A DNA stretch of 26,352 nt. Origin: a virus. Numbering within the stretch: the first letter of the stretch is position 1; each line of letters opens with the position of its first letter. Below the pieces are notes generated by a model. It did no database searches. It was not told the DNA's origin and saw only the letters and a list, made by a program, of their open reading frames with translations. The stretch is taken from IMG/VR virus record IMGVR_UViG_3300017728_003423, positions 1 to 26,352 of that record. One strand, written 5' to 3'. Below are positions 5,633 to 13,182 of the stretch, piece by piece. The position numbers were made by a program, and so were the translations under genes.

Positions 5633-5880
5633 TGTTTTGTTGCCTTTATCGATTCTATCATCGCTTTTCTAACTTCTGGATCGTTTAATTTATCCAAAAA
5701 TTTGTCATTAATCTCAAATTCTATGCCTCGTTCAAACTTTGTCATTAAAGAAACATCGTCTACACCTAACATACTACAAATTTCTTCAAAACTTAGAGTA
5801 TTTAAACCGTTTTCTTTAGCAGTTAATAGCAAATCTAAAATTGCTTCGGTTATTAAATCTTCTAAATTGTTGTCTTTCAT
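5629..5880 (-). CDS. Unknown 83-residue protein directly after tRNA-Ala
   Basis: A small acidic protein starting MKDNNLEDLITEAILDLLLT, mostly helical by composition, with no membrane segment. The frame stays open back into the tRNA gene, but the sensible start is ATG 5880, only seven bases after the CCA end of tRNA-Ala. Its stop TGA overlaps the TTG start of the flavoprotein, so the two are probably translationally coupled. There is no Shine-Dalgarno site, since the upstream bases belong to the tRNA. Once the tRNA is cut out, the mRNA would carry a leader of only about seven bases. Function unknown; possibly a regulator or partner of the downstream reductase. Confidence 0.6.
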   Translation of the reverse strand: MKDNNLEDLITEAILDLLLTAKENGLNTLSFEEICSMLGVDDVSLMTKFERGIEFEINDKFLDKLNDPEVRKAMIESIKATKH

Positions 5881-5887
5881 AATAAAG

Positions 5888-5963
5888 TGGTGGAGCGAAG
5901 AGGGATCGAACCTCCGACCTACTGGTTGCAAACCAGTCGCTCTCCCAACTGAGCTACCGCCCC
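5888..5963 (-). tRNA. tRNA-Ala (anticodon UGC)
   Basis: The 76-base minus-strand sequence folds as a cloverleaf. The acceptor GGGGCGG pairs with CGCTCC and includes the G3-U70 pair that identifies alanine tRNAs. The D-arm GCTC...GAGC is present, and the anticodon arm ACTGG-TTTGCAA-CCAGT has anticodon TGC at loop positions 34-36. The T-arm contains GGTTCGATCC. Discriminator A and the 3' CCA are encoded. It lies between two small genes and is probably co-transcribed with tRNA-Ser from the promoter at 6389-6417. Confidence 0.95.
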
Positions 5964-5977
5964 TGCCTGTCTTTGTG

Positions 5978-6193
5978 CTACTTACTTAAATTTCTATTTA
6001 GGTATGCTTTCATATTGTCGCCAACTCTTTGTGAATTTGCTTGAATATTAGCACTAATTTGCTCTGCATTTTTCCTAATGTTTGCACTAATCTCTTCTGC
6101 GTTTCTCATTACGTTGTCGCCAACATCTTGAAACCACCAGTCATTCTTAGTTGCTTTTTTAGATACTTTTGCTTTTGCTTTTGCTTTTACCAT
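5978..6193 (-). CDS. Small basic helical protein with internal repeat
   Basis: This 71-residue protein lies between the two tRNA genes. It begins with an Ala/Lys-rich basic stretch (MVKAKAKAKVSKKATK), then a DWWFQDVGDN patch, then two near copies of the unit NAE(E/Q)ISANI followed by a looser third, ending NRNLSK. The repeat spacing suggests a continuous amphipathic helix or coiled coil. There is no signal peptide or membrane segment. The start ATG 6193 has a purine-rich AGAGAGAA stretch upstream. The basic tail might bind DNA or RNA, or the protein might be a minor virion or scaffold component; the family is not recognised. Confidence 0.55.
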   Translation of the reverse strand: MVKAKAKAKVSKKATKNDWWFQDVGDNVMRNAEEISANIRKNAEQISANIQANSQRVGDNMKAYLNRNLSK

Positions 6194-6289
6194 TTTGTAA
6201 TTCTCTCTGTGTTTCCACGTTTGCCTAATAATTCTTTATTACTAGGTAGAACATATTTACCACTATTTTTTAAAACTAGTTTTAATTAC

Positions 6290-6379
6290 TGGCGGAGAGT
6301 GAGAGATTCGAACTCTCGGTACAGTTACCCGTACTCTTCCTTAGCAGGGAAGTGCTTTAAGCCACTCAGCCAACTCTCC
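6290..6379 (-). tRNA. tRNA-Ser (anticodon GCU)
   Basis: This 90-base class II tRNA on the minus strand has acceptor GGAGAGT paired with ACTCTCC. The anticodon arm CTTCC-CTGCTAA-GGAAG has anticodon GCT, reading AGC and AGU. A long variable arm, typical of serine tRNAs, is followed by a TTCGAAT T-loop. Discriminator G, also typical for serine, and CCA are encoded. It is the first gene behind a perfect sigma70 promoter, whose start point should fall about three bases before the tRNA. Confidence 0.95.
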
Positions 6380-6388
6380 AGTACATTA

Positions 6389-6417
6389 ATTATAATATGT
6401 ATCATACTATTTGTCAA
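6389..6417 (-). promoter_or_regulatory. Perfect consensus sigma70 promoter for tRNA unit
   Basis: The minus strand shows TTGACA (6417-6412), a 17-base spacer and TATAAT (6394-6389), an exact match to the bacterial housekeeping consensus. It should drive tRNA-Ser, the 71-residue protein, tRNA-Ala, the 83-residue protein and the reductase early and strongly. It stands back to back with the late-type box at 6432 on the other strand. Confidence 0.88.
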
Positions 6418-6431
6418 GAAGTTTGTAAAGT

Positions 6432-6439
6432 GATAAATA
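6432..6439 (+). promoter_or_regulatory. T4-type late promoter box GATAAATA
   Basis: GATAAATA on the plus strand lies within the 12-mer GTGATAAATAGT (6430-6441), identical to the sequence before the gp13-like gene. Seven bases separate it from ATG 6447, with no Shine-Dalgarno site between. It probably drives gp14-like, gp15-like and the following genes late in infection. Confidence 0.62.
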
Positions 6440-6446
6440 GTACATT

Positions 6447-7478
6447 ATGCCAAGACTAAGTTTATGGAACAAGAACAAAACCAACGACTATGATTTTCAA
6501 GATAAAATTATAGCCGAAAACATCAATGCGGGTGGAACAGGGGTTTATGTACACAAATACATAGGCACATATACTGACGACTCTGCAAATACTAGTATTG
6601 GTACTGGTGATTTATATATACAAGATGTTTTGTTTTTAGAAAATAGAGATAGAAAGTACGATACAGACATTTATGAACTGAGAGGTACTTATAATGTAAG
6701 TGAACCAGATTTCGATTTAACACAATTTGGTATGTTTGTAAACAATAACGACTTACAAATGACGTTCCATATGAACACTCTAGCAAGTTTGCTAGGTAGA
6801 AGGTTAATGGCAGGTGATGTTTTAGAACTTCCGCATTTAAGAGACGATTTATTACTTGGTGGTGGTGAAGCAGTAAACAGATTTTTTGTAGTTAGTGATG
6901 CTGGACGTCCGGCAGAAGGATATGATGCTAGATGGTGGCCCCATTTATGGAAAGTTAAACTAACTAATATTACAGACAGTCCAGAATACAGAGATATTCT
7001 TGGAACTGGAGAACAAGCAGATGACCTTAGAAACATTCTAAGTACATACAGTACTGAGATAGCAATATCAGATAAAGTAATGGAAATGGCGGCATCAGAT
7101 ATGCCATATGACAGTGGCTATGCTAAAGGTGGTCATTTATACGTTGATGTAAATGCACCTGATAAGCCTGGAGTTTATTTTCCTGCAGATGGTACACCGC
7201 CAAACGGTGCTACTATTGTTGGTAGTGGAACAAGTTTCCCAACTGATTGTGTTAACGGAGATTATTTCTTGAGAACAGACTTTAATCCGAATAGATTATT
7301 TGTTAAAAACTTATCAGTTTGGCATAAAGTTAGTGATGATAAAAAAGAAGCCTGGTCCGCGGCAAACAAATTGCTTACATCATTTGTTAATAATGATGCA
7401 TCAAGAACTAATACAGATGGTACTACAGGTACAGAAAAAACATCTCTTAGTAAAATTATAAAACCAAAGGCAGATTAA
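6447..7478 (+). CDS. T4 gp14-like neck protein
   Basis: This 343-residue protein fits T4-type gp14, the second neck protein, which binds gp13 and joins head to tail. After a short N-terminal arm, IIAENINAGGTGVYVHKYIG corresponds to the gp14 segment that leads to a Tyr-rich strand. SEPDFDLTQFGMFVNNND and the following GDVLELPHLRDDLL and NRFFVVSDA strands match the order in the family. T4 gp14 has 256 residues; the extra length here is a C-terminal domain containing GDYFLRTDFNPNRLFV, a short module also common in structural proteins of T4-like marine phages. It is followed after one base by the gp15-like gene. Its start has a late box but no Shine-Dalgarno site. The assignment rests on pattern and on gene order with gp15. 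Confidence 0.8.
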   Translation: MPRLSLWNKNKTNDYDFQDKIIAENINAGGTGVYVHKYIGTYTDDSANTSIGTGDLYIQDVLFLENRDRKYDTDIYELRGTYNVSEPDFDLTQFGMFVNNNDLQMTFHMNTLASLLGRRLMAGDVLELPHLRDDLLLGGGEAVNRFFVVSDAGRPAEGYDARWWPHLWKVKLTNITDSPEYRDILGTGEQADDLRNILSTYSTEIAISDKVMEMAASDMPYDSGYAKGGHLYVDVNAPDKPGVYFPADGTPPNGATIVGSGTSFPTDCVNGDYFLRTDFNPNRLFVKNLSVWHKVSDDKKEAWSAANKLLTSFVNNDASRTNTDGTTGTEKTSLSKIIKPKAD

Positions 7479-12137: not shown

Positions 12138-12168
12138 AAAAAAAAGCACACTCTAGGTGTGCTTTTTT
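12138..12168. terminator. Strong intrinsic terminator ending the curli operon
   Basis: GCACAC-TCTAG-GTGTGC (12146-12162) is flanked by eight A residues and six T residues, so the stem extends through A-T pairs. It works in both directions on paper, but only minus-strand genes approach it. It begins three bases after the stop of the start-less -1 frame (12171-12173), which suggests that stop is the true end of the operon's coding sequence. Confidence 0.88.
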
Positions 12169-12170
12169 AT

Positions 12171-12299
12171 TTAACATTCTTTAGGATTCTTAGAGCAGTA
12201 TTCTTCTAACTTTTTTTGATTATCATTAAAAAGTTGTATAAGTTCTTCTGCTGTATATTCCTTTTCTCTTTTATTTTTGAATAGAGAAAAGGTACTTAC
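12171..12299 (-). CDS. Start-less -1 frame: probable frameshifted C-terminus of the lipoprotein
   Basis: From GTA 12299 a frame of 42 sense codons ends at TAA 12173-12171. It reads VSTFSLFKNKREKEY, then TAEELIQLFNDNQKKLEE, and closes with YCSKNPKEC. It has no ATG, GTG or TTG after the preceding in-frame stop, so it cannot start by itself. It is in the -1 frame relative to the lipoprotein, and a shift on GGGAAAG would fuse it to give a 135-residue lipoprotein with a charged helical tail and two cysteines near the end. Its composition looks like real coding sequence and it ends at the operon terminator. Alternatives are a decayed gene or a single-base sequence error. Confidence 0.5.
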   Translation of the reverse strand, partial: VSTFSLFKNKREKEYTAEELIQLFNDNQKKLEEYCSKNPKEC

Positions 12300-12305
12300 T
12301 TTCCC
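12260..12305 (-). promoter_or_regulatory. Probable -1 programmed ribosomal frameshift signal
   Basis: On the minus strand the heptamer GGGAAAG (12305-12299) is read as G GGA AAG in the lipoprotein frame. The stop TAA follows at once within a six-base spacer TAAGTA. Then comes a perfect 10-bp stem CCTTTTCTCT / AGAGAAAAGG (12292-12283 and 12269-12260) with a 13-base loop. GGGAAAG is the slippery site used for the phage lambda G-T tail protein frameshift. No T-run follows the stem, so it is not a terminator. Confidence 0.6.
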
Positions 12306-12577
12306 TCGGTTTTGTCGTCTTTTTGTAGTTCGTCGGTCTGTTTGTCTACATTATCTGCAACTGTTTTAACTACACCTTGTGCTGTATCAATTGTTACATC
12401 TGCAATGTTTCTAGCATCATCAGTAATAGCGACTGCCATTGTAGCGGCTCCGCCAACTACTGAGTCTACTGTTCCTGTGACAATTTCTGTTCCGGCGTTC
12501 CAAGCACCTCCAACTGAGGCACAACTTGTTATTCCAAAACAAACAATAAGTCCGAGAAACATAAATAAATTCTTCAT
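12296..12577 (-). CDS. Small outer-envelope lipoprotein
   Basis: This 93-residue protein has a lipoprotein signal peptide: a short charged start MKNLFMF, a hydrophobic core and the lipobox ITSC, giving a lipidated Cys19. The mature part is small, Ala/Gly/Val/Thr-rich and then charged (NVDKQTDELQKDDKTEGK). Its Ala/Gly/Val-rich make-up loosely recalls entericidin-like lipoproteins, but I do not claim that family. The start ATG 12577 has an excellent AAGGAG Shine-Dalgarno site. It is the last gene of the curli operon, but a late-type box at 12632-12639 may also drive it separately. The reading frame ends on a likely slippery site (see the frameshift entry), so a longer 135-residue form may also be made. 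A role in spanin-like lysis or in anchoring the secretion channel is possible but unproven. Confidence 0.75.
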   Translation of the reverse strand: MKNLFMFLGLIVCFGITSCASVGGAWNAGTEIVTGTVDSVVGGAATMAVAITDDARNIADVTIDTAQGVVKTVADNVDKQTDELQKDDKTEGK

Positions 12578-12676: not shown

Positions 12677-12985
12677 TTAAATTCCGTGTCCGTTAAAAGT
12701 ACGGTCACCTGCAATGCTATTTTGGTCATGTAAATATAATTCATAACACAAGATAGATCTGGTCTGCTCGTTATTACATGTTTGAATTAACTCTAATAAG
12801 TGATTTCTATTTGATTCTTCTATTTCGTGGACTAAATTACACCAACAAAAAAAGAAATAAAATGTTATTGTAACGAATACTGTATAAAATACAACTACAG
12901 GGAAAAAATATGTGAATAGCAAAAAGTGTGTAAAAGCAACCGATAGGCAATAAGTTCTATATGATGATAGCCAACTAGTTATCAC
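12677..12985 (-). CDS. Unknown membrane protein, GTG start
   Basis: This 102-residue protein has a very hydrophobic, Phe-rich N-terminal half (about residues 12-50), long enough for two membrane helices, with two Cys near the end (FFFCWC). A soluble charged C-terminal half follows (EIEESNRNHLLELIQ), containing two more Cys. The start is GTG 12985, overlapping the end of the 53-residue gene by 11 bases; no internal Met offers an alternative. A small membrane protein with a short soluble tail could be a holin, but no family signature is visible. It lies in the 3' part of the curli operon, after the second curlin-like gene. Confidence 0.55.
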   Translation of the reverse strand: MITSWLSSYRTYCLSVAFTHFLLFTYFFPVVVFYTVFVTITFYFFFCWCNLVHEIEESNRNHLLELIQTCNNEQTRSILCYELYLHDQNSIAGDRTFNGHGI

Positions 12986-13136: not shown

Positions 13137-13182
13137 TACCTTGCATTATAGTACGATTTGTACTGAATGTCAACCTTTTATG

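Follow-up and report, generated by a model that had tools for sequence, protein, structure and literature searches.

A small lipoprotein gene of an uncultured marine phage appears to encode two proteins, and the C-terminal tail of the longer one is very probably made by a programmed -1 ribosomal frameshift. The window, which is the whole stretch of DNA that was analysed, is IMG/VR virus record IMGVR_UViG_3300017728_003423 (26,352 bases). It contains the following features in this region.

13145..13173, minus strand: perfect sigma-70 promoter, TTGACA-17-TATAAT, between the second curlin gene and the pair of orf102 and lipoprotein genes
12677..12985, minus strand: orf102, encoding a small membrane protein; it opens the lipoprotein's unit and is upstream of the lipoprotein in most curli-linked relatives
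12296..12577, minus strand: lipoprotein in the 0 frame, 93 residues, lipobox ITSC, Cys19
12299..12305, minus strand: slippery heptamer G_GGA_AAG, in phase with the lipoprotein frame
12296..12298, minus strand: 0-frame stop TAA directly 3' of the heptamer, read from the sequence
12260..12292, minus strand: downstream stem-loop, 10 bp, loop of 13, spacer of 6, arms read from the sequence
12171..12299, minus strand: -1-frame tail, 42 codons and a stop, predicted helical hairpin, end YC-x6-C
about 12138..12169, minus strand: intrinsic terminator, GCACAC-CTAGA-GTGTGC then a T run, 3' of the tail, read from the sequence

The lipoprotein frame ends in G_GGA_AAG, followed by TAA. Six bases, TAAGTA (12298-12293, minus strand), separate the heptamer from the stem, whose arms CCTTTTCTCT (12292-12283) and AGAGAAAAGG (12269-12260) form ten perfect pairs around a 13-base loop (12282-12270). 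The 54-nt region folds at -14.1 kcal/mol, compared with -5.2 for shuffled versions (z -4.3, 0 of 200 shuffles). When the stem alone was compared with synonymous recodings of the same tail peptide, p was about 0.04. Among 7913 in-frame positions in the other genes of the window, 2 have a strongly shifty heptamer. The tail runs from GTA (12299-12297) to TAA (12173-12171), which brings lipoprotein and tail together to 135 residues, and there is no ATG, GTG or TTG in the window's tail or in its open stretch upstream. A sequence-only reading had proposed the heptamer GGGAAAG with a six-base spacer and a perfect 10-bp stem with a 13-base loop, a -1 frame open for 42 codons with no start codon of its own, a terminator after the tail and products of 93 and 135 residues. 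Direct reading confirmed each of these parts, and the two lengths follow from the frames, the longer being that of a predicted shifted form. The same 3' end was also found in two other assemblies (L003 and L004), and is thus no one-off error.

Most ribosomes would stop at the TAA and produce the 93-residue lipoprotein, which is probably located in the outer membrane. A minority would pause at the downstream stem, and the tRNAs on GGA and AAG could re-pair one base back on GGG and AAA. Translation would then continue for 42 codons and give a 135-residue lipoprotein with a C-terminal, cysteine-bearing helical hairpin. The shift would set the ratio of the short form to the tailed form. We infer the occurrence of the shift, its efficiency and the export of the lipoprotein from sequence. 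Read in the same way, the locus has the parts of a candidate -1 frameshift, which are an in-phase heptamer, a downstream structure (in most relatives) and coding potential in the -1 frame.

Viral contigs were first scanned with the lipoprotein as query, which yielded 30 loci, all with the window's arrangement, and three further scans used a profile and divergent members as queries. The tail was found in the -1 frame at 54 phage loci including the window, with 38 distinct 3' ends; these tails were taken as open frames, so their freedom from stops is by construction. An X_XXY_YYZ heptamer stands at the 0-frame end in 35 of the 38, with only A_AAG in three, and the 0-frame stop lies 0 or 3 bases after the slippery site in every one. 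The letters of the site are GGGAAAG (13), AAAAAAG (13), CCCAAAA (7), CCCAAAC (1), GGGAAAC (1) and A_AAG only (3). A_AAA_AAG, G_GGA_AAG and C_CCA_AAG are highly shift-prone in Escherichia coli and A_AAG is mentioned as shifty (reviewed in PMC5009743). The residues encoded at the site vary (EGK, PKKD, EKK, PKE, PNE), and on the lipoprotein tree GGGAAAG and AAAAAAG swap more than once. Since the heptamers swap on the tree with different amino acids at the site, selection keeps the slipperiness and not the peptide. The comparison of homologues, which had been proposed as a check on the frameshift, came out in its favor, as all 38 distinct relatives have kept the heptamer form and the -1 frame, and most of them a stem. 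L103 (3590-3999), L110 and L114 have kept the tail with a site reduced to the A_AAG tetramer and without a clear stem; these three may use a pseudoknot or other stimulator.

The structure 3' of the site was also explored across the relatives. The first 50 bases fold better than random synonymous recodings of the tail in 21 of 23 members (mean z -2.3). The arms differ by lineage yet pair, as in CCTGTTATCT/AGATAAGCAGG (L023), CCTTCTTA/TAAGAAGG (L026), GCTCTTC/GAAGAGC (L071), CCTACTGGT/ACCAGTAGAG (L074) and CGCTCCTTCCG/CGGAAGGAGACG (L111). The best stem score has a mean of 19.0 over all 38. Random places in these loci average 13.7, and in 22 of the 38 the best score is above the 90th percentile of such places. 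Between L009 and L023, two pairs are changed on both sides with pairing kept (double compensatory changes). The covariation count rests on three sequences and is equalled in 60 of 500 shuffles, which makes it weak alone. When 12 sequences of the frameshift region were aligned, the stems of different lineages fell out of register; the count of covariation was therefore limited to one close set and to another set that had no informative changes. No clear simple stem was found in L014/L015 or in L101/L103/L110/L114, and the CCCAAAA group has short stems only.

Purifying selection on the tail is seen in the -1 frame alone, which bears out the earlier remark that it looks like real protein. In pairwise codon comparisons, the median dN/dS of the tail in the -1 frame is 0.31 for all tails and 0.21 in the window's group. 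For these, the two larger sets, the 0 frame gives 0.65 and 0.58, and the +1 frame 1.65 and 1.64. For the lipoprotein in its own frame the values are 0.27 (all) and 0.18 (window's group), close to those of the tail; thus, the tail is constrained much like the lipoprotein. Over the same 1779 tail codons there are 131 stops in the 0 frame and 224 in the +1 frame, the zero of the -1 frame being by construction. Just two residues of the tail do not vary at all; both are cysteines and may form a disulfide. AlphaFold2 predicts a helical hairpin for tail residues 17-37 (pLDDT about 96), which suggests that the tail is a small folded domain. The end of the tail, YC..NP.EC (window 12299-12171, minus strand, and relatives), resembles the C-terminal cysteine hairpin of CP12. 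A CP12 profile scored at chance level against the tail (E about 0.5-0.7), with the short motif YC..NP..EC shared, and homology to CP12 was not accepted (E about 0.5).

The tail could instead be a small gene of its own, translated by ribosomes that terminate at the lipoprotein stop and re-initiate close by. Its overlap with the 0-frame stop resembles that of coupled genes and there are purine runs before the stop, but among 23 distinct members no ATG, GTG or TTG of the -1 frame lies less than 45 bases from the heptamer, and seven of them, the window included, have none in that frame. In nine of the 38 distinct 3' ends a -1-frame stop (TGA, as in CTGAGGGAAAG) abuts the heptamer, so that the frames overlap on the heptamer alone and it is the only entry to the tail. 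With start codons absent near the tail and -1 stops at the heptamer, neither re-initiation nor entry from upstream is plausible. Re-initiation also does not need the X_XXY_YYZ form, yet that form is kept through the letter changes, and we regard this explanation as very improbable. The same low probability is given to transcriptional slippage at an A run, by which mRNAs would gain or lose a base and ordinary translation would read the tail. The AAAAAAG members do have A runs, with seven A in L014/L015. However, the runs in the GGGAAAG, CCCAAAA and GGGAAAC members are of three or four only, and a fixed distance to the stem is characteristic of a shift in translation.

An assembly error or a decayed gene, in which one former reading frame has been split by an indel, is the least probable explanation and is hardly credible here. 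The window is a metagenome contig, and one relative looks like such a case: L083 (85-559), a sister of L078, has the conserved tail in the +1 frame with a long hairpin (AAGCTCATTCTCT/AGAGGATGAGCTT), and could be an indel, a -2 shift or a broken gene. Against this, the same frame offset is present in 38 distinct 3' ends from many assemblies, and the tail is under purifying selection. An indel, for which the sequence-only reading had proposed a check, is excluded for the family by the many independent assemblies with the same offset.

The body of the protein has the hydrophobic N-terminus, signal peptide and lipobox ending in Cys of a bacterial-type lipoprotein, and acylation is predicted. The lipobox cysteine (Cys19) is invariant in 23 diverse relatives. 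No Pfam or PHROGs family was accepted for the lipoprotein, the matches being at chance level only, and it did not match any Csg protein, the components of type VIII secretion. HdeA was a weak match (E 0.024) and was not accepted as a homologue. The flagellar L-ring protein (solved structures, E 0.003) was rejected, as the match spans the signal peptide and start only. For the lipoprotein body, AlphaFold2 gave a poor and unreliable model (pLDDT 55).

On its minus strand the window encodes CsgF, CsgG, a curlin-repeat protein, FecR, a second curlin-repeat protein, orf102, the lipoprotein and a CHASE2-adenylate/guanylate cyclase. This is the same type VIII secretion (curli) module that is known from pelagiphages (PMC7029224, PMC9599517). 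In most close relatives, too, the lipoprotein gene has the second curlin gene on one side and the adenylate cyclase gene on the other. The gene had been described as the last lipoprotein of an operon. The terminator does follow the tail; however, the gene belongs to a distinct unit, delimited by its own promoter and terminator, and does more than close the curli operon. All 12 of 12 promoter letters also match upstream of the lipoprotein in L005, L007, L014, L020, L021, L023 and L027, and again, with a 16-nt spacer, in L030, L073, L075 and L097. Perfect promoters (spacer 16-18) number only 25 in the 568 kb of strand searched, and 16 of the 25 sit 180-880 bases upstream of the lipoprotein. A second perfect TTGACA-17-TATAAT promoter is present in the window at 6417-6389 (minus strand). 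A similar hairpin and T run follow the tail in most curli-linked relatives. A consensus terminator scan did not report the 12138..12169 hairpin, a miss probably due to additional pairing of the T run with an A run. Rfam gave no match above threshold, and its weak sRNA matches fall on the terminator. For orf102, family searches gave no accepted match; orf102 and the lipoprotein could act together as a pair.

The neighbors vary among the relatives. The preceding genes match Rz-like spanins in L030 and L073, a tail terminator gene in L111 and a cyclase gene in L068 and L070. The inner and outer spanin genes are directly upstream of the lipoprotein unit (L030 2820-3684, L073 2791-3715). From the promoter found in relatives and the varied neighbor genes, the lipoprotein unit is a movable set of envelope genes that is probably expressed early.

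The role of the protein can be proposed with less confidence. The unit's own host-type promoter points to early expression and to a role at the envelope in infection. A bolder reading, at somewhat under even odds, is that the frameshift would set the ratio of two exported-lipoprotein forms, the minor one with a disulfide-closed hairpin, for early envelope remodelling, and that the proteins belong to an unrecognised family that is mobile among marine phages. As a first guess, superinfection exclusion or (early) envelope or surface remodelling is a possible role, though a doubtful one, and a role in lysis is unlikely. It is just as unlikely that the lipoprotein is an accessory part or helper of phage curli (type VIII) secretion with the tailed form as minor subunit, which would be compatible with the frameshift. 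This would fit the position of the gene in most close relatives, and modules with FecR and a cyclase have been described (PMC9599517). On the other hand, the lipoprotein unit has its own promoter and terminator, and the same signal is found beside spanins (L030, L073) or tail genes (L111). In the curli clusters of HTVC008M and Melnitz, which are otherwise like that of the window, no such gene is annotated and tblastn finds none.

The frameshift signal is absent from a distant clade (L084-L095 and L116-L127, tree support 100/98), in which neither heptamer nor tail was found and the proteins end PDFPT(S/G)(E/K)LKE(D). Two of its members, L087 and L116, are near a cell wall hydrolase gene. A tblastn search with four lipoprotein versions (one an approximate consensus-like query) gave no match in 50,697 phage records, and no bacterial relative came up when about 85,000 genomes were searched in two pattern scans.

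In tailed phages, tail chaperones and a few capsid genes account for most of what is known of frameshifting. The likeness to lambda G-T that had been proposed holds for the signal, which is the same heptamer, and not for the gene, which is not a tail assembly chaperone. With lambda gpG/gpGT and its relatives in dsDNA phages the window shares G_GGA_AAG, the -1 direction, a C-terminal extension and a minor product. Unlike them, its gene is not beside a tape measure gene, has a lipobox and is without chaperone homology. A tail assembly chaperone G/GT was rejected, as the contexts are curli, spanin or other and the protein has a signal peptide and lipobox. In Escherichia coli dnaX, an unrelated gene, A_AAA_AAG is followed by a stem as in L009, L023 and L026; the dnaX shift shortens its product, whereas the shift here would lengthen it. 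The T7 capsid gene 10A/10B has a -1 C-terminal extension that gives major and minor forms; it encodes a capsid protein with a different site, while the gene here encodes a lipoprotein.

The pelagiphage modules have the same CsgF-CsgG-curlin-FecR-curlin-cyclase cluster as the window, and neither "lipoprotein" nor "frameshift" is in the papers that describe them (PMC7029224, PMC9599517, PMC9004378). Superinfection-exclusion lipoproteins such as Ltp of TP-J34 (PMC3952083), likened by description, are also small and phage-encoded, and none with a frameshift appeared among the papers listed. In the literature searched, the coverage of which is incomplete, no frameshift in a phage lipoprotein was found. 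This is a new gene family that very probably uses a known mechanism, and the signal, in a predicted exported lipoprotein, survives swaps between strong bacterial slippery motifs. Such swaps provide a natural series of variants with which to ask what the ribosomes of streamlined marine bacteria require for a slip. Gene-calling programs stop at the short form and thereby miss the conserved tail, and an overlooked gene unit is added to the puzzling curli clusters of phages. On the L111 contig, which also carries the lipoprotein frameshift, an overlapping gene pair (5825-6675) precedes a tape-measure-like gene and is possibly the phage's own tail chaperone frameshift pair.
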